32,414 bases of DNA from an uncultured Bacteroidales bacterium. GTDB taxonomy: Bacteria; Bacteroidota; Bacteroidia; Bacteroidales; Paludibacteraceae. Each line of letters begins with the position of its first letter. Position 1 is the stretch's first letter. This document shows positions 1,919 through 32,385 of this stretch, piece after piece. The translations under genes were made by a program, and so were the position numbers. The stretch spans positions 1 to 32,414 of the forward strand of contig CACZZL010000023.1 of the NCBI GenBank assembly GCA_902785605.1. The letters run 5' to 3'. The notes beneath the pieces are model-generated. The model saw nothing but the letters and a program-made list of their open reading frames with translations, did no database searches and was not told the origin of the DNA.

Positions 1919-2160
1919 TAGCAATTAAAAATGAAAAATGAAAAATTAAAAATTATAGTTATTAACAAATTATAAACAACTGTTTTGTTACACATATAAT
2001 AACTTGTTCCACATTTCATTTTTCAAAACAACTAACAATCTGACACCCAAAAAATAGCATTATAACCCGTTGAAATCGAATAAAATCGCATATTTATTTA
2101 CAATTTCAACACCCTATAATATTCATTGGTTTAAAAAGAAAAAATATATATTGATAAAAA
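1919..2160. other. AT-rich intergenic region before nadA
   Basis: There is no gene here. It opens with an AATTAAAAATG-type repeat (1923-1955). Next come four sequences close to DnaA boxes: TTATTAACA 1959-1967, TTATAAACA 1970-1978, TGTTACACA 1986-1994 and TGTTCCACA 2005-2013. The last two lie in a direct repeat TTGTT(A/C)CACAT. Further on is an inverted repeat GTTGAAAT (2069-2076) / ATTTCAAC (2103-2110) with a 26-base spacer, then a very AT-rich tract up to the nadA start. I could not place a TAnnTTTG promoter with confidence. Confidence 0.5.
1923..1955. repeat. AATTAAAAATG(A) low-complexity repeat, intergenic copy
   Basis: It is built of AATTAAAAATG / AAAAATG / AAAAATTAAAAATTA units. The same units recur inside nadA (2462-2497) and at the end of the DUF819 gene (5336-5363), so this is a dispersed repeat family and not chance AT-richness at one site. 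Confidence 0.7.
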
Positions 2161-3135
2161 GTGATAGCTGAGATGGAGGATTTGAAACAACAGATTAGAC
2201 AATTAGCGAAAGAAAAGAATGCCGTCATTTTCGCACACTATTATACGCGTCCGGAGATACAAGAATGTGCCGATTTCATCGGAGATTCGTTGGCGTTGGC
2301 ACAACAGGCTACGCGCGTACAGGCGGATATACTAGTAATGTGCGGTGTGCATTTCATGGGTGAGACGATGAAAATCCTCTGTCCGGACAAGAAAGTGCTG
2401 ATACCGGATACGAACGCCGGTTGTTCGTTGGCAGACAGCTGCAAGGCGGAAGACCTCGCTGAATTAATTAAAAATGAAAAATTAAAAATTAAAAATAACG
2501 ATGCCGGTCAAGAGTTGATCGTAGTAAGTTATGTGAATACGAGTGCGGAAGTGAAAGCGCTGACGGATGTGGTGGTCACTTCCTCCAATGCCAAGAAGAT
2601 TGTCGATCAGCTTCCTGCCGATGCCAAGATCATCTTCGGTCCGGATCATAACCTCGGTTCGTATATCAATTCCGTCACGGGACGTAACATGCTGCTTTGG
2701 AACGGTGCCTGTCATGTTCACAGTCGTTTCTCGTTGGAGGCCTTGCTTCAACTCAAATTCGAGAACCCGGGCGTGGAAGTGCTGGCGCACCCCGAGTGCA
2801 AGGCGCCTATCTTGGCGCAGAGCGACGTAATAGGTTCAACCAAGGCACTGCTCGAGCACACCATCCGATCGTCCGCCAAGCGCTTCATAATCGCCACGGA
2901 AAGCGGTATTCTGTTTGAGATGCAGCGTGCGTGCCCGGATAAGGAGTTTATTCCGGTTCCGCCCGAAGTGACGGAAGGCGTAGGATGCTCGTGCAACGAG
3001 TGCGAGTACATGCGGATGAATACGCTGGAGAAACTATATACCTGTCTGCGCGATGAGCAGCCTGAGATGATTGTGGATGAACAGATAGCCGGCAAAGCGG
3101 TTTCTTCTATTGAGCGGATGTTGGAAATGAGTTGA
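2161..3135 (+). CDS. nadA: Quinolinate synthase NadA
   Basis: NadA condenses iminoaspartate with dihydroxyacetone phosphate to quinolinate, the second step of de novo NAD synthesis, using an oxygen-sensitive [4Fe-4S] cluster. The likely cluster cysteines are C88 (AGCSL), C184 (NGACHVHS) and C281 (CSCNECEYMRMN). The substrate-binding blocks FAHYYTRPEIQ, YVNTSAEVKA and VVTSSNAKK are all present. The start shown is GTG at 2161; an in-frame ATG at 2173 is an alternative. Residues 101-113 (ELIKNEKLKIKNN) are encoded by an AATTAAAAATG-type repeat and make the loop before VVSYVNTS about ten residues longer than in E. coli NadA (from memory). nadB and nadC are not in this window. The next gene starts 3 bp after the stop. 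Confidence 0.96.
   Translation: MIAEMEDLKQQIRQLAKEKNAVIFAHYYTRPEIQECADFIGDSLALAQQATRVQADILVMCGVHFMGETMKILCPDKKVLIPDTNAGCSLADSCKAEDLAELIKNEKLKIKNNDAGQELIVVSYVNTSAEVKALTDVVVTSSNAKKIVDQLPADAKIIFGPDHNLGSYINSVTGRNMLLWNGACHVHSRFSLEALLQLKFENPGVEVLAHPECKAPILAQSDVIGSTKALLEHTIRSSAKRFIIATESGILFEMQRACPDKEFIPVPPEVTEGVGCSCNECEYMRMNTLEKLYTCLRDEQPEMIVDEQIAGKAVSSIERMLEMS
2462..2497 (+). repeat. AATTAAAAATG repeat inserted in frame in nadA
   Basis: The units AATTAAAAATG, AAAAATTAAAAATTA and AAAAAT match the intergenic copies at 1923-1955 and 5336-5363. The tract is strikingly AT-rich against the GC-balanced nadA sequence on both sides. It adds lysine/asparagine-rich residues and keeps the frame. Confidence 0.75.
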
Positions 3136-3138
3136 TAA

Positions 3139-4149
3139 ATGGGGCAGATTCAAGACAGAGACAGGTGGTATGCATTCTTTAGGCCGTACGTGGATTGGAT
3201 GTTCCGCCATTCGTACCGGCATTTCCAATACGTAGGTAAGGAAAATATACCTACGGACGGAGCGGTTATTTTTTCTCCAAATCACGCCAATGCCCTTTGT
3301 GACGCGATGGCCATCTTAGGCATCGACCGGTCGCGTAAGGTGTTTGTGGCCCGTGCGGATATATTCAAAAATCCCCGCACGGCTGCTATCTTGACTTGGC
3401 TTAAGATCATGCCGATCAACCGCATCCGCGACGGAGTGGATGAGGTGAAGCACAATGATCAGACGATCGAGAAAGCGGTAGATACGCTGCAAGACGGTGT
3501 GCCGTTCTGTATTCTGCCGGAAGGTACCCATCGTCCTATGCACTCCCTTCTGCCGTTAGGTAAAGGAATCTTCCGCATTGCCCTCCGCGCCAATGACAAG
3601 TTCGGGCACGAGAAACCCGTCTATATAGTACCGGTTGGTTTGGAGTACGGGGATTATTACCACTTGTGGAACGATCTGACGGTTAACATCGGCAAACCAA
3701 TCAATGTTACGCAGTTTGTGAACGAGCATAGCGATCTGGAGCGGCCGCAGCTGATCATGGCATTGCGGGAAGAGCTGACGCTACGAATGCGGGAGCAGAT
3801 AATGTGGGTGCCGGACGATGAGCATTATGAGGAGAATTTTGCCAAACTGCGGGAGAACCCTCCTGCGCCTTTTAATAAGTTCAAACACCATCGTATTCCG
3901 CGGTGGCTGCTGTTCATTATCTTAGTGTTACTGTCTCCGCTGTTTCTGATCAGCCTGGTGTTCACGGTTCCGCTATGGGCAGCATGGCTGTTAATCCGCT
4001 GGACAGTGAAAGATCCGGCCTTCCATAACTCCGTACAATACGTTTGGCAGCTATTGTGCATTCCGCTTACTCTCTTTATAACTCTTCCTTTCTGGATGTT
4101 TTTACAGGAATACATGTACCAGGCAAGGAATTTAAAGTTGAAAGATTAA
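3139..4149 (+). CDS. PlsC-like lysophospholipid/glycerol-phosphate acyltransferase with C-terminal membrane hairpin
   Basis: This is a membrane-bound acyl transferase of the PlsC superfamily. The catalytic block is SPNHANALCD (H49, D55), with five residues between His and Asp, as in the yeast Sct1/Gpt2-type branch; plsC at 26.5 kb has the more common four. The LPEGT block is at 126-130. After the domain, two hydrophobic stretches (about residues 255-287 and 305-328) should anchor it in the inner membrane. The acceptor lipid cannot be told from sequence. The last residues (NLKLKD) and the stop codon are encoded by a TTTAAAGTTGAAAG-type repeat, so the tail is probably not conserved. It follows nadA by 3 bp. 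Confidence 0.88.
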   Translation: MGQIQDRDRWYAFFRPYVDWMFRHSYRHFQYVGKENIPTDGAVIFSPNHANALCDAMAILGIDRSRKVFVARADIFKNPRTAAILTWLKIMPINRIRDGVDEVKHNDQTIEKAVDTLQDGVPFCILPEGTHRPMHSLLPLGKGIFRIALRANDKFGHEKPVYIVPVGLEYGDYYHLWNDLTVNIGKPINVTQFVNEHSDLERPQLIMALREELTLRMREQIMWVPDDEHYEENFAKLRENPPAPFNKFKHHRIPRWLLFIILVLLSPLFLISLVFTVPLWAAWLLIRWTVKDPAFHNSVQYVWQLLCIPLTLFITLPFWMFLQEYMYQARNLKLKD

Positions 4150-5363: not shown

Positions 5364-6866
5364 ATGAAAAGATATTTAATAATTGCCCTTAGTGCTTTGT
5401 TCCTTGTTCCGGTGTATGCGAAGAAGGAGAAGAAACCGCAGGAAGTGGATTCGCTGGGAAACAAGATAAAGACAGGTTGGAACTTCGGTATTTTGCCTTC
5501 TATTGCCTATGATGCCGACTACGGTTTTCAAGGCGGTGTGCTGACCAATGTCTATTACTACGGCGACGGATCCCAGTACCCCGAGTATATCCATTCACTC
5601 TATCTCGAGGCTGCTTATACCACCAAACATCATGGTATATTCCGTTTTAACTACGACTCCAAGTACCTCATTCCGGGCTATCGTCTAACACTCGATGCCA
5701 CCTATTTGCCGGATGCGATGTGCGATTTCTACGGATTCAACGGCTACCAGTCCCAATACAACTTCGATTGGCACAACTGGAAGAAGAAAACCAGCAAAAT
5801 GGCGCACCCGGAAGAGTACCAATCGCGTGTGTTCTATAAGTACAAGCGCGACCTGATTCGTGTAGCCGGAGACATCGAAGGAACGATCTATAAGGACCTC
5901 AAGTGGAATGCCGGATTAGGCGTGCTCGGTTACATCATCGACGACTGCGACATCAACATGCTCAACGGTAAGAATAAGTTCGATCCGACCAAAGAGCGCT
6001 ATGAGCAGAAAGCACTCGATCCGTCTGTACAAGGCTTATACGATAAGTACAAGACCTGGGGATTGATTGGTGCCGATGAGATGAAAGGCGGATGGCACCC
6101 CTACGTACGTGCCGGCCTTACCTACGACACGCGTGACAAGCGTCAGGGACCGAACAAAGGTCTGTACATCGATGCGTTCTTCACCTACTCGGCTGCGTTC
6201 AATGCCGCCTACGGACAGCAAGCGACTGCCGGCTATAACCACCTGCAGTTCAACTTCACTTTCCGTCATTATGTGCCGTGTTACAAGGACAAGAACGGTA
6301 TAAACCGCATCACTTTTGCATACCGTATCGGTACGCAGAACAACATCGCCGGACGTTCGCCGTTCTATATGAACAACTACATGAACACCCTTTTCATCCA
6401 GCGTGTGTACTACGAAGGACTCGGTGGTGGTAACTCGATCCGTGGTATGATGGCGAACCGTATTCTGGCGAACGGCTTTGCGTTTGCCAACGTCGAGTTC
6501 CGTTTCCGCGTGGTTAATTTCGACATCGGTCGCCAGCATTTCTTCATCGGTCTCAATCCGTTCTTTGACTTAGGTGTGATCACCCAGCCGTATAATCTTG
6601 ACGACCTCGTAGCTCTGCATACCGGCGGACAGTACACGACCCTCAAGCAGATCATGGCTGACAAAACGCCGACCGACAAGTACGAGGACTACTTCAATAC
6701 CACCGATGACAAGAACGCCTATATGCCGCATATGTGTGCCGGTTTAGGTCTCAAGATCGGTATGAACGAGAACTTTGTCCTCTCTGCCGATTGGGCGATG
6801 CCGATCAACAAACAGGACAATCAGAAGTGGGCGAACTTCTACGTAAAAATGGGTTACCTGTTCTAA
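5364..6866 (+). CDS. Omp85/BamA-like outer membrane beta-barrel protein
   Basis: This 500-aa protein has a signal peptide (MKRYLIIALSALFLVPVYA, cleavage near residue 19) and then alternating-residue beta strands rich in Tyr, Phe and Gly. It ends in FYVKMGYLF, with the C-terminal Phe that outer-membrane barrels use for assembly. The strand pattern and the YEGLGGGNSIRGM element (near residue 350) match the barrel half of the Omp85 (BamA/TamA, surface antigen D15) superfamily; the element resembles the conserved (V/I)RG(F/Y) motif of loop 6. No POTRA domains precede it, so it is not BamA itself. What it inserts or exports is unknown. A strong terminator follows at 6908-6951. Confidence 0.82.
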   Translation: MKRYLIIALSALFLVPVYAKKEKKPQEVDSLGNKIKTGWNFGILPSIAYDADYGFQGGVLTNVYYYGDGSQYPEYIHSLYLEAAYTTKHHGIFRFNYDSKYLIPGYRLTLDATYLPDAMCDFYGFNGYQSQYNFDWHNWKKKTSKMAHPEEYQSRVFYKYKRDLIRVAGDIEGTIYKDLKWNAGLGVLGYIIDDCDINMLNGKNKFDPTKERYEQKALDPSVQGLYDKYKTWGLIGADEMKGGWHPYVRAGLTYDTRDKRQGPNKGLYIDAFFTYSAAFNAAYGQQATAGYNHLQFNFTFRHYVPCYKDKNGINRITFAYRIGTQNNIAGRSPFYMNNYMNTLFIQRVYYEGLGGGNSIRGMMANRILANGFAFANVEFRFRVVNFDIGRQHFFIGLNPFFDLGVITQPYNLDDLVALHTGGQYTTLKQIMADKTPTDKYEDYFNTTDDKNAYMPHMCAGLGLKIGMNENFVLSADWAMPINKQDNQKWANFYVKMGYLF

Positions 6867-7004: not shown

Positions 7005-7046
7005 CAGTCGATTTTGGTAAAATGATACAAAAAAGATTGGAAAAGT

Positions 7047-8297
7047 ATGAGAATTCTGTTTGTAGTAAATAGCTATTTCAGTCAAGGAAACGGCCTTGAC
7101 GAGTCAGCCAGACGAACCGTACAGGCCCTGCGGGATGCAGGACAAGAGGTGCGGGTGTTATCCGGAGAGAACTTTGAGAACCCGAACGGGCCGCAGCCGG
7201 AATACCGAATGAAGAAGTTCTATTTTCCGTTGATGCAGCCGATGTTGGATTCGTTCGGTTATGCGTATGCGGATTGGCACGGCCCGGTCGTGGAAGAAGC
7301 GGTTCGGTGGGCGGATGTGATTCATCTGGAGGAGACGTTCTTCTTACACCATGCCGCCATGAACAGGGCGCGTAAGTTAGGTAAACCGATCACGGGCACG
7401 TATCACGTGCATCCGGAGAATATCGTGTACAATTGTCTCGGACACAGAGCCGGTTTTTTGACTTGTCAAATCCTCTATCGGTATTGGTGCCGTGTGTTCT
7501 ATGACCACTATAACTACCTGCAGTGCCCGACGGATAATGTGCGGGAGCGTCTGGTGCGCCATCATGTGAAAGCGCACTGTTTCACCCTCTCCAACGGGGT
7601 TATTCCCGATACCTGTATCCGTCCGACAACACCTCCTGCCGACTACCTGGATGAGAACCGTCCGTTGGATCTTATCTACATCGGTCGTACAGCCATTGAG
7701 AAGGATCAGCCGACCCTCTACAAAGCCATTCGGTTGAGCAAGTACGCCAAGCGTATCCGTCTGCACATAGCCGGACGCGGACCCAAACTGGAGCAGTACA
7801 CGAAGATGGCGAATCAGTTGTATGAAGAAGGCGTTCTCACCTACCCTCCCGTAGTCGGTTTCTATAACCGCGATCAGCTGCGCCAATTGGCTGCCCATGC
7901 AGATTTGGCGGTACACTGTGCGTACGTCGAAGTAGAAGGAATGAGTATCACCGAAGCGCTGCAACAGGCGGTGGTGCCGGTCATCGCGACCGCACGGTAT
8001 TCCGGCACAGCTACGTATGCCCTGGATGACCGCAGCCGTTTTCCGGAAGGGGATGCCAAAGCATTGGCTGAGAAGATCGACTACTGGTTCGACCATCCGC
8101 AAGAGCGCTGGGAGATGGGCTTTAAGTATGCCGAATCGATGAAACAGTATGAGATCGCCAACTGTGCGCAATCCCTGATACAGATGTTCCAAAATGCAAT
8201 TGATGAAAAGAATGGCGAAACGCATGCTACTGATCGTCCTGTGCTTTCTTCCATTAAGCGCAAGGCCCTCGGAAAACTCCATAAGCACACCGCATAA
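7047..8297 (+). CDS. Family GT4 glycosyltransferase
   Basis: This retaining, GT-B fold glycosyltransferase has 416 aa. The N-terminal acceptor domain begins MRILFVVNSYFSQGNGLDESARR with the glycine-rich loop. The donor domain begins near LIYIGRTAIEKDQPTLYKAI, and the nucleotide-sugar site EVEGMSITEALQQA at about residues 294-307 is the E-x7-E signature. There is no signal peptide or clear membrane helix, so it probably acts at the cytoplasmic face of the inner membrane on a lipid or polysaccharide. The sugar and acceptor are unknown. The last 35 residues (after about IDEKNG) are read from the DNA that also encodes the esterase signal peptide in another frame, and are unlike a conserved family end. 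Confidence 0.9.
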   Translation: MRILFVVNSYFSQGNGLDESARRTVQALRDAGQEVRVLSGENFENPNGPQPEYRMKKFYFPLMQPMLDSFGYAYADWHGPVVEEAVRWADVIHLEETFFLHHAAMNRARKLGKPITGTYHVHPENIVYNCLGHRAGFLTCQILYRYWCRVFYDHYNYLQCPTDNVRERLVRHHVKAHCFTLSNGVIPDTCIRPTTPPADYLDENRPLDLIYIGRTAIEKDQPTLYKAIRLSKYAKRIRLHIAGRGPKLEQYTKMANQLYEEGVLTYPPVVGFYNRDQLRQLAAHADLAVHCAYVEVEGMSITEALQQAVVPVIATARYSGTATYALDDRSRFPEGDAKALAEKIDYWFDHPQERWEMGFKYAESMKQYEIANCAQSLIQMFQNAIDEKNGETHATDRPVLSSIKRKALGKLHKHTA

Positions 8298-8982
8298 CAT
8301 CCTCCATAGTTGGTGGTTTAGCCATTCGGAGAACATATACCGCCGTGTAGATATCTATCTGCCGGCGGCTTATGATACCTGCTCGCAACCGCTGCCGATC
8401 GTCTATCTCATTCATGGCATCAACGGCTATGAGGGTTCCTGGCAGGACATGGGCGATGCGGTCGATACACTGGAGTCACTCGTCGCGGCCGGACGGTGCC
8501 AACCGATGATACTGGTCATGCCGGACTGTAACAAATGGCCGTTCTTCGAACGACCTACCAATCATGGGAACTTATGGAAATGTGTGTTTCACTATGGTCG
8601 GTTGAGTCATGAGCATCAGATCGAATATGCCATCAGCGACCTGATGAACAGCATGGATTCGCTCTATCACCCAGCTTTCACTGCCATTGCGGGCCTCAGC
8701 GACGGAGCACGTATGGCAGCTAATGTGGCGAATGTGCGGCAGAGCTCCGTGCAGGCGGTCGGATTGTTCTCACCGGTGTTGCACAAAGACCAGTTGCCGG
8801 ACAACACTACCTCGTGCTACTATATCTATGCCGGGAAGCAGGACTTTTTTTACGGGCACGCCAACCGGTTTCATAAACGGATGGAGAGAGCGGAGTATCC
8901 GCATCAGTTTATCGCATGGGAAGGTGGGCATAACTGGCATATGTGGCGCCGATGCCTGGCCGATTTCTTGCTGCAGTTATAA
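8194..8982 (+). CDS. Secreted alpha/beta-hydrolase esterase
   Basis: This is an exported serine hydrolase of the putative-esterase (esterase D / mycolyltransferase-like) family. A signal peptide (KRMLLIVLCFLPLSARP) leads into a beta domain with YLIHGINGYEGSW (oxyanion region), the nucleophile motif GLSDG with Ser169, and a C-terminal GGHNWHMW carrying the likely catalytic His. Starts are possible at 8194, 8203, 8212 or 8224; 8203 (MKRMAKRM) gives the neatest signal peptide. All of them lie inside the glycosyltransferase gene, so the overlap is 74-104 bp. Its stop shares the six bases TTATAA with the stop of the convergent nuclease gene. Possible substrates are ester-decorated plant polysaccharides or surface glycans, which is a guess from the family. 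Confidence 0.88.
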   Translation: MQLMKRMAKRMLLIVLCFLPLSARPSENSISTPHNILHSWWFSHSENIYRRVDIYLPAAYDTCSQPLPIVYLIHGINGYEGSWQDMGDAVDTLESLVAAGRCQPMILVMPDCNKWPFFERPTNHGNLWKCVFHYGRLSHEHQIEYAISDLMNSMDSLYHPAFTAIAGLSDGARMAANVANVRQSSVQAVGLFSPVLHKDQLPDNTTSCYYIYAGKQDFFYGHANRFHKRMERAEYPHQFIAWEGGHNWHMWRRCLADFLLQL

Positions 8983-9900
8983 GTGCAACAGCAACACAAT
9001 CGGCAAATGGTCTGAATAGCCGTTTTGGTATTGATAGCCGTTGTAGGTTCGTTTGGGTTTAAGGCCCAGAAACTTCTCGTCAGGTTCCTGTATCCACTCC
9101 GCATCGTAGATCGTCACCTCCGACACGCTATCCAAGGCAGGAGAGGTATAGAACTGATCCAGGCATGTCCAGCGGCCCTGGTGCTTATGCGTGCCTTCAC
9201 CACGTGACACATACTGCATCATGCGGTTGTTCAAGCCTCTTATATCCTCTTGGGGAGCGCTGTTCATATCGCCCATCACCAGGATGCGGGCCTGTGCATC
9301 GATAGTCAACACGGAATCCACGGTATGTTGCAGCACCTGTTTGGCCGCTTCTCTTTTCCAGGCACTCTCTGCCGCTCCGCCCAACTGACTCGGCAAATGG
9401 CAGACGAACAGATGAAGCGTGTCCCGTCGGTCTGCTATACATTCGACGTACAGGATATCCCGAGTCGTCTCCAAACCCAAATCCACCCGTATTGCTTGGG
9501 TCCGCAGGGTGTCTATGCGTGCTTTCTTATAGATCAGCGCCACATCAATACCTCGTTTGTCCGGGCTGTCGTAGTGTATCCATCCGTACTCGCCCGGCCG
9601 CAACGTATAGCACAACCGCTTCACCACGGCTTCGTTCTCCACCTCCTGCAATCCGACGACATCTACCCCATCCCACTCTCCGATAGTCGTCAGCACGCGG
9701 GCGATGTTCTCATCCTTGCGAAAATACCGCGCAAACGACCATCGGCGTTTGCCATCCTGTGTCCACTCGGTGTCCGGGTGGATGCTGTCCTGCTCCGGAT
9801 GAAACAGGTTCTCTACATTATAACTCACCACCCGCAGCGACTGCGCCGATGCGCTCAGCGCACCGCAAAGCAGTACCAATATGAGAAAACGGTTTCTCAA
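8977..9900 (-). CDS. Secreted endonuclease/exonuclease/phosphatase (EEP) family protein
   Basis: This metal-dependent phosphoesterase has the DNase I-like fold and 307 aa. It has a signal peptide (LILVLLCGALSASAQ, cleavage near residue 20). The EEP motifs follow in order: VVSYNVENLF (Asn28), GLQEVEN (Glu86, metal ligand), VMGDMNSAP (catalytic Asp/Asn) and YSDHLPIV near the C-terminus (Asp297, His298). Export suggests scavenging of phosphate or extracellular DNA, but the family also includes lipid and sugar phosphatases. The start is TTG at 9900, overlapping the sufS stop as TTGA; no ATG precedes the signal peptide. It is the last gene of the long minus-strand run, and no terminator follows. 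Confidence 0.88.
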   Translation of the reverse strand: MRNRFLILVLLCGALSASAQSLRVVSYNVENLFHPEQDSIHPDTEWTQDGKRRWSFARYFRKDENIARVLTTIGEWDGVDVVGLQEVENEAVVKRLCYTLRPGEYGWIHYDSPDKRGIDVALIYKKARIDTLRTQAIRVDLGLETTRDILYVECIADRRDTLHLFVCHLPSQLGGAAESAWKREAAKQVLQHTVDSVLTIDAQARILVMGDMNSAPQEDIRGLNNRMMQYVSRGEGTHKHQGRWTCLDQFYTSPALDSVSEVTIYDAEWIQEPDEKFLGLKPKRTYNGYQYQNGYSDHLPIVLLLHL

Positions 9901-11111
9901 CCTAAAATAGCTATACTCTTCTGTAAAGCCGCAATGAACGCATCCACATCCGCCCGGTCGTTATACAACCCGAACGACACCCGCACTGTTCCCGGTACGC
10001 CGATCTCGTCAATCAGCGGTTCGGCGCAATGGTGTCCCGTGCGTACGGCGACCCCCTGCTGGTCCAACAGCGTCCCGATATCAAACGGATGAATGAGCTC
10101 CTTCCCGTTGTACACATTGAAACTGATGACCCCTGCTTTGCGTTGGCCTGCCGCGTAGATACGGATACCGTCTATTGCCCGCAACTGCTGTTCACAATAC
10201 GCCGTCAATTCCTGCTCATGCGCCTCCATCGCGTCCCAACCAATGGCTTGCATATAGTCCATCGCGGTCTTCAGCGCCCAACTGCCCACATAATTCGGGG
10301 TGCCGGCTTCGAACTTATACGGTAACTCGTTATAGCTTGTTCCGCTCCAGCGCACATGGTTGATCATCTCTCCCCCACCCTCGTGCGGCGGCAGCTTCTC
10401 CAGCCACTCCCGTTTGCCGTACAGCACACCGATGCCGGTCGGACCGTATAGCTTATGTCCCGAGAACACCAGAAAATCACAATTCAATGCCTGCACATCC
10501 ACCGGCATATGCGGTACACTCTGCGCCCCGTCGATGCACACCGGGATATTGCTCTCGTGCGCCAGACGGATGATTTCTTCTACGGGTTGGATCGTACCTA
10601 ACACATTGCTCACATGTGCTACGCTCACCAACCGTGTCTTATCGTTTAGAAGGCCTTTAAAAGCCTCTATATCGAGCGATAGGTCATCTCGTAAGGGAAT
10701 ATGCCGCAGCACGGCTTTCTTGCGCTCACAGAGCATTTGCCACGGTACGATGTTCGAGTGGTGCTCCAGTCCGCTCACGATGATCTCATCACCTTCGTGC
10801 ACCAGCAGTTCGCCTAAGCAGAACGCCAAGGCATTGATGCTGTCCGTTGTGCCCTTGGTGAAAATGATCTCATCGCTGCTCTCGGCACCGATAAACGCCG
10901 CCACAGCCTTACGGGCTTCCTCGTGCTTCATCGTCGCCACCTGGCTCAGATGGTGCACTCCTCGGTGGATGTTACTGTTCCAATGGCTGTATGCCTCTAC
11001 GATTGCGTCCATCACCGGCTGCGGCTTCTGACTCGTAGCGGCATTGTCCAGATACACCAACTCACGTCCGTGTACGAGCTCTTTGAGTATCGGAAAATCG
11101 TTTCTATTCAT
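9897..11111 (-). CDS. sufS: Cysteine desulfurase SufS
   Basis: SufS is a PLP enzyme that removes sulfur from cysteine as a persulfide for Fe-S cluster assembly. It shows the SufS/CsdA pattern: TSQKP near the N-terminus, the PLP-bound Lys220 in SGHKLYGPTGIG, and catalytic Cys362 in RTGHHCAEPL. The length of 404 aa is normal. The rest of the suf genes (sufBCD) are not in this window, which is worth noting because sufS usually follows sufD in this phylum; the gene overlaps the MATE gene by 8 bp instead. CsdA is the alternative name for this type. Confidence 0.93.
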   Translation of the reverse strand: MNRNDFPILKELVHGRELVYLDNAATSQKPQPVMDAIVEAYSHWNSNIHRGVHHLSQVATMKHEEARKAVAAFIGAESSDEIIFTKGTTDSINALAFCLGELLVHEGDEIIVSGLEHHSNIVPWQMLCERKKAVLRHIPLRDDLSLDIEAFKGLLNDKTRLVSVAHVSNVLGTIQPVEEIIRLAHESNIPVCIDGAQSVPHMPVDVQALNCDFLVFSGHKLYGPTGIGVLYGKREWLEKLPPHEGGGEMINHVRWSGTSYNELPYKFEAGTPNYVGSWALKTAMDYMQAIGWDAMEAHEQELTAYCEQQLRAIDGIRIYAAGQRKAGVISFNVYNGKELIHPFDIGTLLDQQGVAVRTGHHCAEPLIDEIGVPGTVRVSFGLYNDRADVDAFIAALQKSIAILG

Positions 11112-12510
11112 ATGCTTTTTGATCTGCTAATCGTTTTAATTGTTTATGAAACCGCACGTGGAACAGTACGGCAGGGATGGCCAATGCGATCACGAACGCA
11201 ATCCACATGCCTTGTGCACCCCACCCCACAGGGAACGTGAGCGCTAAACCCAGCGGTAATGCTACCCCTATATAGGCGAATAGCGCAATGCGCATCGGTA
11301 CCCGTACATCCTGAATACCACGCAGCATTGCCGCTCCGATGCATTGGAGTCCGTCCGCGTATTGGAGCGTGCCTGCAATGATCAACAGGGATGAGGCAAT
11401 AGGTATCACTTGCGGATCTTCGGTGAAGATATACGGGATATAATGGCGTCCGAAGATCATGATCGCTGCCCCGATGGTGTTCATGGTCAGGCACAGATGC
11501 ACCGAAGCCCGACTCGCCATCTTTACTGCATGCAGGTCGCCTTTTCCTAATTGGTGACTGACCCGTATGGTGGTAGCCGAACCGATGCCCAGCGCCAACA
11601 TGAATGTCAGATCCGCCATCTGGTTCGCGATATGATGGGCTGCCAACGCTTCCTTATTGATCCATCCGATGATGATGAACGATGCGGTAAAAAGGAAGGC
11701 TTCTGCAAAGGACTGCAGCCCGATCGGCGTACCGATATGGATCAGATGTTCGACCTCGCGGCGGGTGATGAAACAAAGGCGGATAGCCTGTATATACCGT
11801 CTCCATTCGTCCTTGAGCAGCATTGCCACTAAGAAACAAACGGGCATCAGACAACGGGCGATAAGGGATGCCCACCCCGCTCCTTCTGCACCCATCGGCT
11901 CCAGACCGCAGTGACCGTAGATAAACACCCAGTTGAGCGCGATATTCAACAGGTTACAACCCAGCGTAATGAGCATCGCCACCCAGGTGTTGTCCAGACC
12001 TTCCAGGAACTGTTTGCTGAAGCAAAACAGCAGAAACGGTATGATGGACAGCACAATTAGCGTATAGTACGGTCGGGCACAGGCTACCACTTCCGGCTCT
12101 TGCCCGAACCGATCCAGAAACGCGATACACGGGACTAACAGTAACAACGAGAAGATACACATCAAACCCGTGTAAACCAATCCGTTAACCAGATACGAGG
12201 TGATCTGTTCGTGCTTGTGTGCAAGCTCTTCTTCCGGTGCGTTGAGTTGTTGCAGTTTCTCCAACCGTCCGTGCACATGTCCCACCAAGGGCGTGATACC
12301 CATCACAGCACCCATCGCAAACACCATCACAGTAAAGAAGATGGCATTCGAGAAACTGACGGCTGCCAGATCCGTTGTGCCGTAGTGACCGACCATGATC
12401 GAATCCGCCAAACCCACCATCGCTGCACCCAGTTGGGTCAGCATCACCGGAAGCGCCACCTTCAGATTGCGTTTGTAATAGGGTAGATATGTCCGAAACG
12501 AATAGGCCAT
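11104..12510 (-). CDS. MATE family multidrug efflux transporter
   Basis: This is a Na+- or H+-coupled exporter of 468 aa with twelve predicted membrane segments in two six-helix halves. The first helix pair carries PVMLTQLGAAMVGLADSIMVGHYG, the typical MATE opening, and the second half opens with IGTPIGLQSFAEAFLFTASFIIIGWI. It probably sits in the NorM-like branch. The substrate is unknown. It overlaps the upstream lipoprotein gene by one base (TAATG) and sufS by 8 bp, so it is translated within the same transcript. Confidence 0.93.
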   Translation of the reverse strand: MAYSFRTYLPYYKRNLKVALPVMLTQLGAAMVGLADSIMVGHYGTTDLAAVSFSNAIFFTVMVFAMGAVMGITPLVGHVHGRLEKLQQLNAPEEELAHKHEQITSYLVNGLVYTGLMCIFSLLLLVPCIAFLDRFGQEPEVVACARPYYTLIVLSIIPFLLFCFSKQFLEGLDNTWVAMLITLGCNLLNIALNWVFIYGHCGLEPMGAEGAGWASLIARCLMPVCFLVAMLLKDEWRRYIQAIRLCFITRREVEHLIHIGTPIGLQSFAEAFLFTASFIIIGWINKEALAAHHIANQMADLTFMLALGIGSATTIRVSHQLGKGDLHAVKMASRASVHLCLTMNTIGAAIMIFGRHYIPYIFTEDPQVIPIASSLLIIAGTLQYADGLQCIGAAMLRGIQDVRVPMRIALFAYIGVALPLGLALTFPVGWGAQGMWIAFVIALAIPAVLFHVRFHKQLKRLADQKAYE

Positions 12511-13514
12511 TAGGGTTTATAATAACTGTCTTCCAGTATCTTCTGTGCATCCCCTTCAGCCATCAATTGCTGAAGTGTAACATCCTCATTATGTTCCATA
12601 TAGCTCTCTACAATACGCCAACCAAGCCATATACCCAACCGTCCCGGTGCGTCTTGGGACACCTCCGATGTGAACGGTCCGTCGTTCAGGTAGCCGGTCA
12701 ACACCAGACTCTCGGTCTTGAACAGATCCCTTTTATCCATCACCAGATGCCAGATCGCTTTTTCGTTCTGTTCACACCATTTCCACTGCTCCTTCGTCCA
12801 ACCCATGACCTCGTATCCCGGCGTCTTGTCAAAGATCTGTGCCGTGAGATACATGATTTTACCGCGGTAGATCATCTGATCCAGCAACCGGCTCTTGGAA
12901 CTGGTGTAGGGGAGTGTCCGAAACAAGTACGCACTCACCACATCGACCGGGATACACTCCTTGCGCATCGTCTGTTTCTGGTACTCGTACACCACGCGGT
13001 TGTAGTACTCATAATGGCTGCCCAAATACATATCCGCCCCGACGCCGATGAGCTCGTCGTTGAAGTAGATCGGGGTCTGAAAACCGGAGATGAACAAGTA
13101 GATACTCGGAATATCCGTCTCCGGATAGAGATATTGAATACGTGCAAAAGCATGAGAAAGAGCGGATTGCAAATCCGTCACATCCTCAAACTGTTGTCTT
13201 TCGACTGCGTTCGTTTGCTTGAACCCGTACAAGGTGTCGTTCAAAAACTCCGGTAGCGCCTGCTCCAGATAAGCTGTGTCTGCGGACGGAATACCCAATA
13301 TATCTTCCACCCAGAGCGGCATGAAAAGCGGATACTCGTCGTAAAGCACGCGGATATCCTGTGCCACCGTTGCTTCGTGCACGTTCTGTATAGCCTGGTC
13401 AAAACGCACAATCTCAACCTCTTGCTTGGCTATATCCTTGGGAAAATAACTCCTTCCTTTTTGGCAACTCGTCAGTGCCAATGCACATAGTATGATGCAA
13501 ATCAGTTTCTTCAT
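12510..13514 (-). CDS. gldB: GldB-like lipoprotein
   Basis: This is a lipoprotein with signal peptide MKKLICIILCALALTSC; Cys17 would be lipidated. The body (VEIVRFDQAIQNV, LYPETDIPSIYLFISGF, GVGADMYLGSHYEYYNRV, GWTKEQWKWCEQNE) matches the GldB family first defined in gliding Flavobacterium but present in many non-gliding Bacteroidota, where its role is unclear. The HYEYYNRVVYEYQ and metallopeptidase-like spacing recall DUF2268, but I see no clear HExxH. The open frame extends upstream to 13550, but the ATG at 13514 starts a proper signal peptide and is preferred. It sits 7 bp after the LolD-like gene. Confidence 0.85.
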   Translation of the reverse strand: MKKLICIILCALALTSCQKGRSYFPKDIAKQEVEIVRFDQAIQNVHEATVAQDIRVLYDEYPLFMPLWVEDILGIPSADTAYLEQALPEFLNDTLYGFKQTNAVERQQFEDVTDLQSALSHAFARIQYLYPETDIPSIYLFISGFQTPIYFNDELIGVGADMYLGSHYEYYNRVVYEYQKQTMRKECIPVDVVSAYLFRTLPYTSSKSRLLDQMIYRGKIMYLTAQIFDKTPGYEVMGWTKEQWKWCEQNEKAIWHLVMDKRDLFKTESLVLTGYLNDGPFTSEVSQDAPGRLGIWLGWRIVESYMEHNEDVTLQQLMAEGDAQKILEDSYYKP

Positions 13515-13521
13515 TATCCCA

Positions 13522-14172
13522 TCATTTAATGATTCCGTCCTTGATCTCAATCACCCGGTCGGCAATGCCTGCCAACTCCTTATCGTGTGTCACGAGCAAG
13601 ATCGTCTGCCCGTATTCCTGTCTCAATTGGCGCAGCAGATCACTCAACTCTTTCTTGTTCTTCTCATCCAGACTGCCCGTCGGTTCGTCTGCCAGAATGA
13701 TATCCGGTTTCATCATCAGCGCTCTCGCTGCGGCTACGCGTTGTTTCTCACCGCCCGACAGCGCATTCGGCTTATGATGCATGCGCTCATGCAAGCCCAA
13801 CTCATTCAATAACCGTTCTGCACGAGCCTGATAATCAGTTTCTTTCTCACGTGCAATCATCGCTGGGATACAGACGTTCTCCAGCGCGGTGAACTCCGGC
13901 AACAACTGGTGGAACTGAAAAATGAACCCGATATGCTTATTTCGGAATGCTGCCAACTCGCTGTCGCGCATCCGGAACACATCCGTTCCATCAATCACCA
14001 CCTGACCCTTCGTCGGGCGGTCCAACGTGCCGATGATCTGGAGTAGGGTGGTCTTACCGGCACCGGACTTGCCGACAATAGCCACGATCTCACCTTTCTG
14101 TACCTGCAGGTTCACACCCTTCAGCACCTCCAAATCGCCAAACGATTTATGTATGTCTTTAACTTCTATCAT
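13522..14172 (-). CDS. lolD: ABC transporter ATPase, LolD-like
   Basis: This 216-aa ATPase is of the LolD/MacB/FtsE group. It has Walker [10 protein letters not shown] at 34-42, the Q-loop in [12 protein letters not shown], the signature LSGGE at 138-142, and Walker B DIILADEP at 157-164 followed by TGSLDE, typical of lipoprotein-release ATPases. The permease partners LolC/LolE are not adjacent. LolD frees lipoproteins from the inner membrane for transfer to the outer membrane. The next gene encodes a lipoprotein, which fits but does not prove this. A MacB-type ATPase is the alternative. Confidence 0.85.
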
Positions 14173-14662: not shown

Positions 14663-16483
14663 TCAGAGGCTTATTTGTGCCTGAATTTGTTCGTAAATGG
14701 CTGAACCTCTGCGTGTTCCGAGCAATTCTATCCATTCGTCCTTTTCGGCTGTTCTAGCACGCTTCACGGAACCGAAATGGGTCAATATCTTATGCTTGGT
14801 AACTTCGCCAACTCCTTGAATATCATCCAGTTGGCTATGTATTTGTGCCTTGCTTCGCTTCTGTTTGTGGTACGAAATGGCAAAACGGTGCACTTCGTCC
14901 TGTATGTTGGTCAGCAATCGGAACACTTCGCTTGTCACCGGCATGCCGATCTCTTTCGGAGGGAACCCGAACAGCAGGGTCTGTGTCCGGTGCTTGTCGT
15001 TTTTCTTCAGTCCCGCGATCGGTATCTGCAGTCCCAACTGATCCTCCACCGCTTCCCGGATGGCATGCATCTGTCCCAAACCACCGTCGGCAATGATCAG
15101 GTCCGGCATCTGTCCGCCTTCGTCGATCAGGTGTTGATAGCGTCTCCTTACTACCTCGCGCATGCTCGCGTAGTCGTCTGCGCCTTGCACCGTCTTGATC
15201 TCAAACCGTTTGTAGTCGCTCTTGCTCGGTTTAGCCATCCGATAGACGACACACCCTGCCACCGCATTGGTGCCCTGTATATTCGAGTTATCGAAGCACT
15301 CAATCCAACGGGGCAGAGTAGGGAGACCTGCCATCTGTTGCAGTTCGGTCAAAATACGTACGCCTCTTTGCTCCGGATTCAGTTTGTCTTCCTGTTTGAG
15401 CCGGTCGAGCTTATACTGCCGAACGTTCTGCATAGCCAGATCCAGCAACTTCTTCTTATCTCCACTGGTGGCAATGTAGATATGCAGCGAATCATCAAAT
15501 ACGTCCGGAATGAACGGAACAATCACGTCCTGCGTATGACTCTCCAGCTGCTGTCTCAATTCCATCATTCCCATCGCCAGCAACTCCTCTTTCTCTTCTT
15601 CCATCTTGCGGCGATACTCGATCGTCTGTCCGCGTACGATACATCCGCCGTGCACATGCAGCATCGATATATAGACACGGTCATCCTGCTCGTCGTATCC
15701 GAACACATCCACATCTTTTGCCGATGAATTCGTGATGATCGTCTTGCTCTTGAACTGCTCCAGCAACTCGATCTTACGCTTCATTTCTGCCGCCTCTTCA
15801 TACTTCATCTCAGCCGCTAACCGCATCATCTCATCCTCTAACTGCCGTCCGATCTCGTGTGCATCACCCTTAATCAGTTTGCGCGCCTGATCTATCCACT
15901 CTTGGTAATGCTCACACCCGGGCTTCATCTCACAGATACCACAGCAGTTCTTGAGGTGGTATTTGAGACACACACGCACCTTTTTTTTCTCGATCGAATC
16001 GGTTGTTAACGGCATGTTACAGGTTCGAATCGGGTAGAGTTTATGAATCAACTCCAGCACCAAATCCACCGTATAACCAAAACTGTACGGACCGTAGTAC
16101 TCGCCGGTTTTCTTATTGATCGTTCGCGTCTTGAAGATCCGCGGATACGGTTCACGCGTGATGCATATACTCGGGTAACTCTTGCCGTCCTTTAGCAGAA
16201 TATTGTAGTGCGGCTGGTATTGCTTGATGAGGTTGTTCTCGAGCAAGAATGCGTCTTGCTCACTCGCTACCACCACATATTTGATATCCGCTATATGGGC
16301 GACTAACTGCCTGGTCTTGCTGCTCTGGTGATCTTTGTTGAAGTAACTGTTTACACGCCGGTGCAAGTTTTTAGCCTTGCCGACATAGATGATCTGCCCC
16401 TCTTTGTCAAAGTACTGATACACTCCCGGACTCTCGGGAATGCGCTTTAACAGTAGGGCAATATGATCATCTTTCTTATTCAT
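14663..16483 (-). CDS. uvrC: Excinuclease ABC subunit UvrC
   Basis: UvrC makes both incisions in nucleotide excision repair. It has an N-terminal GIY-YIG nuclease domain (GVYQYFDKEGQIIYVGKAKNL, residues 20-40) for the 3' cut, four cysteines near residues 155-190 (CNMPL, CLKYHLKNCCGICEMKPGC) expected to bind an Fe-S cluster, and a UVR motif near residue 215. The RNase H-like domain (WIECFDNSNIQGTNAVAG, DLIIADGGLGQ) makes the 5' cut, and a helix-hairpin-helix follows near 570 (IQGVGEVTKHKILTHFGS). The length of 606 aa is full. It overlaps apt by 8 bp. Confidence 0.97.
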   Translation of the reverse strand: MNKKDDHIALLLKRIPESPGVYQYFDKEGQIIYVGKAKNLHRRVNSYFNKDHQSSKTRQLVAHIADIKYVVVASEQDAFLLENNLIKQYQPHYNILLKDGKSYPSICITREPYPRIFKTRTINKKTGEYYGPYSFGYTVDLVLELIHKLYPIRTCNMPLTTDSIEKKKVRVCLKYHLKNCCGICEMKPGCEHYQEWIDQARKLIKGDAHEIGRQLEDEMMRLAAEMKYEEAAEMKRKIELLEQFKSKTIITNSSAKDVDVFGYDEQDDRVYISMLHVHGGCIVRGQTIEYRRKMEEEKEELLAMGMMELRQQLESHTQDVIVPFIPDVFDDSLHIYIATSGDKKKLLDLAMQNVRQYKLDRLKQEDKLNPEQRGVRILTELQQMAGLPTLPRWIECFDNSNIQGTNAVAGCVVYRMAKPSKSDYKRFEIKTVQGADDYASMREVVRRRYQHLIDEGGQMPDLIIADGGLGQMHAIREAVEDQLGLQIPIAGLKKNDKHRTQTLLFGFPPKEIGMPVTSEVFRLLTNIQDEVHRFAISYHKQKRSKAQIHSQLDDIQGVGEVTKHKILTHFGSVKRARTAEKDEWIELLGTRRGSAIYEQIQAQISL

Positions 16484-17015
16484 TCACCTCAATTCCAAAC
16501 AAGCACTCTAAGCCATCCGACTTGCCTTCCAGGTACTGACGACCGTTCAGACCTTCCAACTCAATCAGGCAATTCACATAAACCTTCTTTACACCGAGTT
16601 TCTTCACCAACTCAATCGCTGCCTCCATCGAACCGCCGGTAGCTAAGATGTCGTCGTGAATGAGCACGATGTCGTCCTTGCTCAGTGCATCTTTGTGAAT
16701 CTGGATAGTGTCATCTCCGTATTCTTTTTTGTAGGTGACGGAGATCGTCTCTGCCGGCAGTTTGTTGTGTTTGCGGATAGGTACAAAGCCTGCACCCAAC
16801 TCGATTGCCACCGCCGGGGCCATAATGAAACCGCGGGACTCAATACCCACCACTTTCGTAATACCCTTGTCACGGTACAATTTTACAATTTCATCTCGCA
16901 TCCATACCATATACTCTGCTTTGAGCAAAGCGGTTGTGATGTCTTTAAACTGTATGCCCGGTATGGGGAAATCAGGCACATTGCGAATCGCATTTTTAAC
17001 TTCTTCTGCTGTCAT
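16476..17015 (-). CDS. apt: Adenine phosphoribosyltransferase
   Basis: Apt salvages adenine to AMP with PRPP. It has the family opening IRNVPDFPIPGIQFKDITTAL, GIESRGFIMAPAVA, and the PRPP-binding loop VLIHDDILATGGSMEAA at about residues 117-133. The start at 17015 (MTAEEVKNAIRNVPDFP) gives 179 aa, the usual length. The frame stays open to 17066 and includes another ATG at 17045, but the codons between 17045 and 17015 spell the parS site, so the upstream starts are rejected. Confidence 0.95.
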   Translation of the reverse strand: MTAEEVKNAIRNVPDFPIPGIQFKDITTALLKAEYMVWMRDEIVKLYRDKGITKVVGIESRGFIMAPAVAIELGAGFVPIRKHNKLPAETISVTYKKEYGDDTIQIHKDALSKDDIVLIHDDILATGGSMEAAIELVKKLGVKKVYVNCLIELEGLNGRQYLEGKSDGLECLFGIEVNE

Positions 17016-17028
17016 ATGTTTTGTAGTT

Positions 17029-17044
17029 TGTTTCACGTGGAACA
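17029..17044 (-). promoter_or_regulatory. parS: parS chromosome-segregation site (ParB/Spo0J binding)
   Basis: Read on the minus strand the 16 bases are TGTTCCACGTGAAACA, an exact match to the Bacillus subtilis parS consensus TGTTNCACGTGAAACA. The site lies in the mnmG-apt gap, just before the preferred apt start. ParB loads here, spreads along the DNA, and with ParA and SMC moves the newly copied origins apart. Such sites cluster near oriC, so this window is probably on the origin side of the chromosome. parA and parB are not in the window. Confidence 0.85.
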
Positions 17045-17079
17045 TTCCAGGTAGTTTGCTTTGCAAACTAAAGTTCGTA

Positions 17080-18945
17080 TTATCTTCCCATGAGTACCAG
17101 TAATACGCTTACATCATTCGGGCTGACACCCGGTATACGTTGTGCTTCTCCGATGGACTTGGGACGAATGCGGTTTAACTTCTGCCGTGCCTCAGTACTC
17201 AAACTTTGCACTTCGTCGAAATTAAAATGGTCGGGTATGCGTATCTGATCCAATCGTTGCAGTTTGGCGGCTTCCAGTTGCTCGCGTTTGATGTATCCGG
17301 CGTACTTGATCTGAATCTCGCAACTCTCTATGATTTCATCGGACAATTCTGCCGTTTTGACCTTCAATTCCGGTACCACTTCGGCGAGTCCTTTAATCGT
17401 CACTTGCGGGCGTAGTACCAACTCGCTTATTTTGCATCCTTCGTGCAGTGCCGAGCTGCCGATGCTCTCCAGCCACCCGTCGATGGTGCCTTTACGCACA
17501 GAGGTCTGCTGCATATATTCGATGAAATCGGCACAAGCTGTTTGTTTGTGGCAGAGCAGATCGTACCGTTCTCTGTCGGCCAGGCCCATCTCGTAACTGC
17601 GCTTCGTGAGCCGTTCGTCCGCGTTGTCCTGGCGAAGCAGGATACGGTACTCGGCACGGGACGTGAACATACGGTAGGGTTCGTCCACACCTTTGTTGAC
17701 CAGATCGTCAATCAGCACACCGATATAGCTCTCATTGCGTCCCATAGTGAACGGACTACCTCCATGCACATTGATATGTGCGTTCACACCGGCTACCAAT
17801 CCTTGTCCGGCTGCCTCTTCATAGCCGGTGGTGCCGTTGATCTGACCAGCGAAAAACAGATTTTCAATCTGTTTAGTCTCCAGGGTGTGGTGCAATTGGG
17901 TGGGGTCGAAGAAGTCATATTCGATCGCATACCCCGGTCGGTAGAGCACCACATCTTCCAATCCCTGAATAGTGCGCAGACCTGCAAGCTGTACCTGCCA
18001 AGGCAGACTGCTGGAGAATCCGTTGACGTAATACTCGTTACTATCCACTCCTTCCGGTTCCAGGAAGATCTGGTGCGCTTCTTTGTCGGCAAACGTAACA
18101 ATCTTGGTCTCTATGCTCGGACAGTAACGCGGACCGATGCTCTTGATTTGTCCGTTGAATAGGGGCGAATCTGCCAGTCCTGCGCGTAGCGCTTCGTGCG
18201 TAGTTGGATTGGTGTACGTGATCCAGCAGGGCATCTGTTTGAGTTCCCGTTTGACGCTATGCAGATACGAGAACTGGTGCCAACTGTCATCTCCGTCTTG
18301 GCGCACCAGTCGCTCGAAGTGAATAGACCGAGCATCGATGCGTGCAGGGGTTCCGGTTTTCATGCGGTCGGTGCGGAATCCTAATGAGGCCAGTTGTTCG
18401 GTGATGCCGTGTGAAGCGGGTTCGGAGGTACGTCCGCCGGGAATCTGTGTCTTGCCGCAATGCATGAGACCGTTCAAGAACGTACCGTTGGTCAGTACCA
18501 CTGCCTGCGCTTCCATCTCAATGCCTAACATCGTCTTTATACCGCATACCTTATTATCTCTGATAATAAGACCAGTCACTATATCTTGCCAAATATACAG
18601 ATTGTCGGTGTGTGCCAGTACGTTGATCCATTCCTCGATGAACCGCTTGCGGTCGCTTTGACTACGCGGACTCCACATAGCCGGACCCTTACTCTGGTTG
18701 AGTAAACGGAACTGGATAGCACTGCGGTCCGTCACGATACCCATCTGACCTCCGAGCGCGTCAATCTCACGCACAATCTGACCCTTGGCGATTCCGCCTA
18801 CGGCCGGATTGCAACTCATCTGGGCGATCTTGTTCATATCCATCGTGATCAGCAGCGTCTTGCTGCCCATACGGGCTGCAGCACTCGCCGCTTCGCAACC
18901 GGCATGACCGGCCCCGACTACTATCACATCGTATCTGAAATCCAT
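17080..18945 (-). CDS. mnmG: tRNA uridine-5-carboxymethylaminomethyl modification enzyme MnmG (GidA)
   Basis: MnmG is an FAD enzyme that, with the GTPase MnmE, adds the (carboxymethyl)aminomethyl group at U34 of tRNAs reading split codon boxes. It has the dinucleotide-binding motif GAGHAG at 11-16, the family signature SCNPAVGGIAKGQIVREIDALGG near 46-68, and GQINGTTGYEEAAGQGLVAG near 370-390. The C-terminal helical domain ends IPGVSPNDVSVLLVLMGR. The length of 621 aa is full. mnmE is elsewhere. gidA lies close to oriC in many bacteria, consistent with the parS site just after it. Confidence 0.98.
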   Translation of the reverse strand: MDFRYDVIVVGAGHAGCEAASAAARMGSKTLLITMDMNKIAQMSCNPAVGGIAKGQIVREIDALGGQMGIVTDRSAIQFRLLNQSKGPAMWSPRSQSDRKRFIEEWINVLAHTDNLYIWQDIVTGLIIRDNKVCGIKTMLGIEMEAQAVVLTNGTFLNGLMHCGKTQIPGGRTSEPASHGITEQLASLGFRTDRMKTGTPARIDARSIHFERLVRQDGDDSWHQFSYLHSVKRELKQMPCWITYTNPTTHEALRAGLADSPLFNGQIKSIGPRYCPSIETKIVTFADKEAHQIFLEPEGVDSNEYYVNGFSSSLPWQVQLAGLRTIQGLEDVVLYRPGYAIEYDFFDPTQLHHTLETKQIENLFFAGQINGTTGYEEAAGQGLVAGVNAHINVHGGSPFTMGRNESYIGVLIDDLVNKGVDEPYRMFTSRAEYRILLRQDNADERLTKRSYEMGLADRERYDLLCHKQTACADFIEYMQQTSVRKGTIDGWLESIGSSALHEGCKISELVLRPQVTIKGLAEVVPELKVKTAELSDEIIESCEIQIKYAGYIKREQLEAAKLQRLDQIRIPDHFNFDEVQSLSTEARQKLNRIRPKSIGEAQRIPGVSPNDVSVLLVLMGR

Positions 18946-31650: not shown

Positions 31651-32385
31651 TTACATCTCCGGATCTACGAGAATACGTCCGCAGAACTCGCACACGATGA
31701 TTTTCTTGCGAGTGCGGATATCCAACTGCTGCTGAGCAGGGATCTTGGCGTGGCAACCGCCACACGAGTCACGCTCGATCTTGACCACAGCCAGACCGTT
31801 GCGGGCGTTCTTACGGATACGCTTGAATGCGGTGAGCAGACGCTCGTCCATTTTCTTCTCCAGTTCGTTGGAACGCAGAATCAGGGCCTCGGTCTCAGCC
31901 TTGGTCTCCGACAGGATCTGGTCGAGTTCCGAACGTTTCTGGTTCAGATCGACGGTGCGCTCCTCGATATCCTTGGTCGTCTTGGCCTTGTCAGCCAGAC
32001 GTGCCTCGAGTTCAGCGGTGAAGTGTTTGATCTTACGCTGCGAAGCCTCGATCTCCAACTCCTGATACTCGATCTCCTTGTTCAGGTTATCAAACTCGCG
32101 GTTGTTACGCACGCTGTTCTGCTGCTCTTTGTAACGCGAGATAGAAGCGTTGGCGTTCTCCGTGCGTACACGGTGATCCGAGATCTGGGTCTCACACTCC
32201 TTGATGTCGTTCTCGATATTGGTCAGACGGGTCTTGAGACCTTCCACTTCGTCAGCCATGTCTTTTACTTCCTGGGGCAACTCACCGGCCAGGGTGCGCA
32301 AGTTATCAATCTTGGTGTCCACTTGCTGCAGTTCGTAGAGCACTTTCAAACGGTCCTCTACCGTTAATTCTTTTGTTCTTGCCAT
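31651..32385 (-). CDS. Coiled-coil protein with C4-type zinc ribbon
   Basis: This 244-aa protein has a long N-terminal coiled coil (about residues 10-185, rich in Glu, Lys and Leu heptads) and a C-terminal zinc ribbon with cysteines C208, C211, C232 and C235 (CGGC...CEFC). This is the C4-type zinc-ribbon domain family, which includes the Helicobacter flagellar protein FlgZ (HP0958). In Bacteroidota it is common and of unknown role. It starts 29 bp from the window edge, and its promoter lies beyond. Confidence 0.88.
   Translation of the reverse strand: MARTKELTVEDRLKVLYELQQVDTKIDNLRTLAGELPQEVKDMADEVEGLKTRLTNIENDIKECETQISDHRVRTENANASISRYKEQQNSVRNNREFDNLNKEIEYQELEIEASQRKIKHFTAELEARLADKAKTTKDIEERTVDLNQKRSELDQILSETKAETEALILRSNELEKKMDERLLTAFKRIRKNARNGLAVVKIERDSCGGCHAKIPAQQQLDIRTRKKIIVCEFCGRILVDPEM

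Follow-up and report, generated by a model that had tools for sequence, protein, structure and literature searches.

A 16-bp palindrome separates mnmG (gidA) from apt in an uncultured Bacteroidales bacterium of the Paludibacteraceae (assembly GCA_902785605.1, contig CACZZL010000023.1, positions 1 to 32,414; this whole stretch of 32,414 nucleotides is hereafter called the window), and the question that it raises is whether the sequence is a chromosomal centromere or only looks like one. In ParABS systems, ParB nucleates at parS and spreads, while ParA moves the origin region. A preliminary description of the window had taken the palindrome for a perfect parS, placed in a 15-gene cell-shape operon where it would bring ParB and SMC loading next to the elongasome genes. 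As set out below, a chromosomal parS is upheld by the site itself, by an encoded ParB, by the junction kept in relatives and by a link with the origin in relatives, and the parts of that description concerning SMC and the elongasome are not.

The 16-mer and the genes around it

The site, TGTTCCACGTGAAACA, is a 16-bp palindrome with one asymmetric position. It had been described as matching the parS consensus perfectly and as the only full match in the window, and both statements are confirmed: the window scan gave 0 mismatches against TGTTNCACGTGAAACA at this place, and 3 mismatches at every other matching place. The gap to the mnmG stop (17080) is 35 bp and that to the apt ATG (17015) is 13 bp. 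Scanning of the draft genome (2,077,741 bases, or 2.08 Mb, in 28 contigs; 83.5% complete) with the palindromic form TGTTNCACGTGNAACA, at most one mismatch being allowed, returned the site as a single place, with no scatter of hits and none for the control. When two mismatches of TGTTNCACGTGAAACA were tolerated over the whole draft, two further places appeared, which we read as chance-like because the reversed-pattern control matched more often (4 per strand). Given the completeness of the draft, additional parS sites may be missing from this count.

Table 1. Positions of the site and of other features in the window
Feature	Position	Strand	Basis or remark
parS site TGTTCCACGTGAAACA	17029..17044	minus	exact consensus match; sole place in genome at <=1 mismatch
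mnmG (gidA), gene accompanied by the site	17080..18945	minus	TIGR00136, 814.9 bits (cut-off 524.85)
apt, adenine phosphoribosyltransferase, start taken as ATG 17015	16476..17015	minus	NF002636 and TIGR01090 over cut-off; phase analysis in relatives
uvrC, next gene	14663..16483	minus	TIGR00194 over cut-off
GldB-type lipoprotein gene	12510..13550		227.9 bits (cut-off 190); same run as mnmG
Omp85-family gene	5364..6866		left of the run
ORF region with weak match to the middle of the SMC profile	31651..32385	minus	match at 31807..32334, E 1.4e-7, below cut-off

The preliminary description had also warned that an apt start at 17045 or 17066 would wrongly turn the site into protein (MFHVKQ), and the relatives agree with it. 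Among 57 named loci in which mnmG and apt flank the site, its phase against the apt frame was random (20, 18 and 19 loci); that frame stayed open upstream across the site in 17, and 5 had an ATG at the site or ahead of it; the spacing between site and apt was likewise varied. The site as a protein-coding N-terminus of apt was rejected on account of this random phase. Judged from these sequences, MFHVKQ is not conserved as a protein end, and the start of apt is likely the ATG at 17015.

The 15 genes counted earlier do form a co-directional run, extending from mreB (24987) to a gene at 8977 in the order mreB, mreC, mreD, mrdA, rodA, a YraN-like gene (below curated cut-offs), mnmG, apt, uvrC, tsaE, an ABC ATPase gene closest to LolD (below cut-off), gldB, a MATE transporter gene, sufS and an endonuclease-like gene (weak match). 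A general link of the site to the elongasome was rejected because only 10 of 80 mnmG loci had mreB detected ahead of the gene, some of the 80 being too short on that side to tell; the companion of the site is mnmG and not the mre genes.

Conservation of the site beside mnmG

These 80 named loci are those kept, out of 588 that encode a relative, by a protein search with mnmG that was blind to parS. According to record titles they include Paludibacteraceae, Dysgonomonas, Parabacteroides, Bacteroides, Prevotella, Muribaculaceae, Porphyromonas, Prolixibacteraceae and Alistipes, and the nearest named loci among the matches listed (L034-L040; 72-90% identity) are from uncultured Bacteroidales and Paludibacteraceae. 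Of the 80 loci, 77 carry the palindrome TGTTYCACGTGRAACA, with at most one mismatch, between -20 and +330 bp relative to the mnmG end, and in 61 of the 77 it is exact. Over the same 80 of 588 loci, the mnmG-end zone contained 83 sites in 29,280 bp, versus 24 in 1,415,024 bp elsewhere, and a permuted-palindrome control was present in none. When the 77 loci were aligned by the match, the 16 core positions were near-invariant and the flanks a few bases off were not, the core columns being partly selected. Three loci had no near-mnmG site: L056, with two exact sites 3.6-4.6 kb downstream; L107, with one-mismatch sites at -434, +687 and +2862; and L092 (Porphyromonas catoniae), with none at mnmG and the sole candidate of its genome, which carries a core mismatch, elsewhere.

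Within the family, the exact pattern was found in 38 of 101 genomes and the reversed control in none of the 101. Eight family genomes, five of them of the source organism's own genus (the source genome, G000, included), were scanned at up to one mismatch of TGTTNCACGTGNAACA; every place lay at the mnmG 3' end, bar one one-mismatch match in G024, and the control pattern gave one match, in G033. All four other genomes of the genus that were examined have the site at the mnmG 3' end, as the exact 16-mer in G021, as a fully symmetrical form in G070 and G087, and one base off in G050. In G050 and G070, apt is absent from the junction and the site still follows mnmG, standing between it and uvrC (L196, L198). 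Retention of the 16-mer at this junction by relatives, which the preliminary description had put forward as a check, is thus exact in G021 and extends, as the palindrome at the mnmG 3' end, to the 77 loci. Fifteen genomes hand-picked via named loci, including the genomes of L056, L092 and L107, all gave at least one match, near the mnmG end in 12 (the rest being those three) and at more than one place in 13; as control matches were also seen in 8 of the 15, the extra one-mismatch matches of this looser pattern are taken to be at about chance level.

Other arrangements were seen besides. Two genomes of one genus in the family carry parS arrays near uvrC, consisting of 7 exact sites and 1 one-mismatch site within 1.5 kb (L327, G037:C45:1-9000, at 2056-3502) and of 6 exact sites and 1 one-mismatch site (L328, G004:C25:1-14000, at 7024-10868). 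Locus L329 (G069:C31), from another genome of the family, has an exact parS within the mnmG coding sequence and two symmetrical copies behind the gene (3991, 5384 and 5541). In two Parabacteroides genomes a second parS-like site, TGTTACACGTGAAACA, occurs ~330 kb from the mnmG site in P. gordonii (G102:C1:2579852) and ~307 kb from it in P. goldsteinii (G105:C11:221883; L325 2884), in the latter inside a 738-aa ORF.

Across the phylum, the exact palindrome was found in 72 of 99 genomes and the control in 1 of 99, the other 27 genomes being without an exact site in what was an exact-match scan only. Context was inspected for 39 of the 45 genomes listed among the 72, the source genome being one of the 45; the 39 comprise 29 with a locus supplied and 10 hand-picked (G159, G163, G186, G209 and G213, of the already well represented family f16, are not among the 39). 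The site lay at most 1 kb from mnmG in 36 of these 39 genomes with an exact site and, as judged within the inspected stretch, was (i) only 5' of the gene in 22, (ii) only 3' in 13 and (iii) on both sides in 1. Inspected genomes with no mnmG within 1 kb are those of L285, L286 and L291; in L291 the site is near the contig start beside ybeY, a gene that in 7 other loci lies opposite the site from mnmG. Among the matches listed, parS pairs whose spacing of 1.90-1.95 kb roughly equals one mnmG gene occur in at least 15 genomes, and in L312 such a pair was seen flanking mnmG on both sides.

Could the palindrome instead be an operator or RNA element regulating apt or mnmG, with a coincidental likeness to parS? 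Its symmetry and its place in a short gap ahead of apt would suit such an element; we nevertheless hold this to be very unlikely, since the site still lies at the 3' end of mnmG in loci whose junction lacks apt (L196, L198), is found on the 5' side of the gene in 22 of the 39 inspected phylum genomes, keeps neither phase nor spacing to apt, and has the sequence of the published ParB site in a genome that encodes a ParB with R173 and G201. Equally improbable is a non-functional relic, preserved by linkage or by chance: the flanking genes are of an essential type and slow to change, but the near-invariance of the 16 positions against variable flanks in the 77 loci (aligned by match, core columns partly selected) and the absence of the permuted palindrome from all 80 loci count against this reading.

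ParB, condensin and the position of the origin

A ParB that could act on the site as parS is encoded in the draft. There is one ParB_N gene (E 1.6e-34, over cut-off; TIGR00180 also over cut-off), and parA adjoins it (L144, a ParA-like ORF beside ParB), so that the check for parB in the genome came out positive. The parAB locus, against which the preliminary description had proposed to plot the hits, is not adjacent to the site, the ParB gene being on another contig, and in two closed relatives parB is ~0.82 and 0.21 Mb from the site, with parAB and dnaA not adjoining the latter. Solved structures matched by the ParB of the source genome include chains of Spo0J and ParB (best E 8.6e-53) as well as its relatives Noc and KorB. 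In the available part of PMC7383237, which gives the parS-contact and specificity positions, ParB is characterised by R173 and G201 and Noc by Q173 and R201, S is conserved at ParB position 172 and K at 184 is frequent in Noc; positions 1 and 6 distinguish the Noc site from parS. The residues of the source ParB at the corresponding positions are Q162, G170, K171, K172, R173, N178, Y179, K184, G201 and R204, the departures being K172, where S is conserved, and the K184 common in Noc. The parS-type pair R173 and G201 is present in all 8 family ParBs, and the Noc-type pair Q173 and R201 in none of them; position 204 is K in 2 of the 8. That the site serves a nucleoid-occlusion protein of the Noc type, or a plasmid-type relative of ParB, instead of a chromosomal ParB is at most hinted at by the structural matches to Noc and KorB and is scarcely credible in view of the single ParB_N gene adjoining parA, the ParB-type residues at 173 and 201, and the two positions at which the Noc site differs from parS (PMC7383237, same part).

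Loading of SMC at the site, as proposed earlier, was unsupported. ScpA was detected in 0 of 41 family genomes, among them the source genome and a 100%-complete genus relative, and in 9 of 14 controls; SMC_prok_B scored over cut-off in 0 of the 41 and in 10 of 14 controls, with up to 12 candidates scored per genome. This condensin search covered ScpA and SMC. Because ScpA and canonical SMC were not detected, SMC-ScpAB loading was left out of the account given below, and the site is apparently independent of SMC-ScpAB. In other genera of the family, two long ORFs that match SMC weakly (1,128 aa, G026:C69:32237-33208, and 1,150 aa, G031:C6:37395-39236) are possible divergent SMC-like proteins, and the weak SMC match in the window (Table 1) is probably just coiled coil. 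Clear condensin homologues were not found in B. caecimuris and T. muris, according to the portion of PMC10197239 available.

The origin was placed by fitting a step in coding-corrected GC skew, by log-likelihood, on sampled stretches rather than whole chromosomes. In the closed relative G001, support for the step spans 2.510-2.535 Mb, and parS, at 2.536 Mb, is 2.0 log-likelihood units below the best fit; an origin at dnaA is worse by 62.2 units and at parB by 56.2. In the closed relative G024, the support spans 2.000-2.095 Mb with parS at 2.045 Mb (1.0 units), and dnaA and parB are worse by 23.9 and 16.0 units. On large contigs of two other species, the step falls beyond the site, by 56-136 kb in P. 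gordonii and by 21-31 kb in B. ihuae, an origin exactly at the site being worse by 11.8 and 17.2 units, respectively. The best step is on the mnmG 3' side in all four, the support in G024 spanning both sides. The relation to GC skew suggested in the preliminary description is thus found in G001 and G024, where the origin is at or near parS, and is looser in P. gordonii and B. ihuae, where it is 21-136 kb off.

Within the window, the residual skew changes sign at 17 kb, passing from negative to positive values as it would at an origin. Of 114 comparison stretches (some of them near origins), 7 have a positive step of this size and 15 have one in either sign, and with smaller coding coefficients the step shifts from 17 to 25 kb. 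As proof of an origin in the window, the 17-kb step was rejected because 7 of the 114 stretches equal it and its place varies with the coding coefficient; for the window itself, an origin-proximal position of the site is no more than suggested. No DnaA-box cluster (four or more TTATNCACA within 600 bp) was found in the window, in the joined G001 and B. ihuae skew-step stretches or in the other sampled stretches scanned, and for this reason oriC itself was not located. In Bacteroidetes oriC lies far from dnaA (PMC4755523, in the part available), and the origin does not always accompany dnaA (PMC10197239, likewise in part).

A kept address and its counterparts in known systems

Overall, we are confident that the site is a chromosomal parS, the origin-proximal centromere of this Bacteroidales (Paludibacteraceae) bacterium, at which ParB would nucleate and slide and from which ParA would drive segregation. 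The one ParB of the genome, whose gene adjoins parA on another contig, would nucleate on the palindrome, load onto the DNA with CTP and then slide outwards across mnmG, apt and the genes nearby, and ParA would separate the two new origin regions; ParB binding, spreading and segregation at this site are in this respect predictions drawn from sequence. The site codes for no part of mnmG or apt and owes its location to an old, kept address beside mnmG. As a genuine parS it is ordinary in kind, and what is noteworthy is the address, kept over much of the phylum, together with the apparent independence from SMC-ScpAB.

We lean, by a modest degree, towards a broader reading, in which parS beside mnmG is a centromere address kept through much of the phylum (3' of the gene in Bacteroidales, 5' or on both sides elsewhere) and has kept its place close to the origin as dnaA and parAB moved off, the window's family working without SMC-ScpAB; the pair would then mark the origin generally in genomes and drafts of the phylum, and would be what is left of an ancestral gidA-origin-parS cluster. 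In E. coli gidA adjoins oriC, and gidAB-parAB clusters are known from other bacteria; the kept address at mnmG fits an ancestral gidA-origin-parS cluster from which dnaA and parAB later departed. Our literature search, of partial coverage, found no earlier report of the mnmG-parS pairing, which we do not claim to be unreported. A predicted parS at mnmG forecasts where ParB should bind, and its setting offers a natural case for the role of ParB-parS where SMC-ScpAB was not detected; annotators are warned of apt starts that translate the site. Since dnaA is no guide to the origin in this phylum (PMC4755523, in part, and our own skew fits), a centromere that keeps to one gene would serve as a simple origin marker, also where a draft is fragmented.

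The site resembles the parS of the ParABS systems of Bacillus subtilis, Caulobacter and Pseudomonas in being a 16-bp palindrome, in a genome encoding both ParA and ParB, and in lying near the origin, here in relatives. It differs from them in that parAB and dnaA do not adjoin parS in the closed relatives and SMC-ScpAB was not detected. With the origin-linked gidA of E. coli and the gidAB-parAB clusters of other bacteria it shares the association of mnmG with the origin; it differs in that parS alone has remained beside mnmG, parB and dnaA being elsewhere. For B. subtilis, 8-10 parS sites are tabulated in the available part of PMC7022226, as against one site in the present draft. Closest in phylogenetic setting are the Hi-C maps of gut Bacteroidota, where parS clusters mark the origin and, as here, dnaA does not always do so (PMC10197239); the gene adjoining parS is not named in the part of that study available, and the pairing with mnmG is added by the present analysis.
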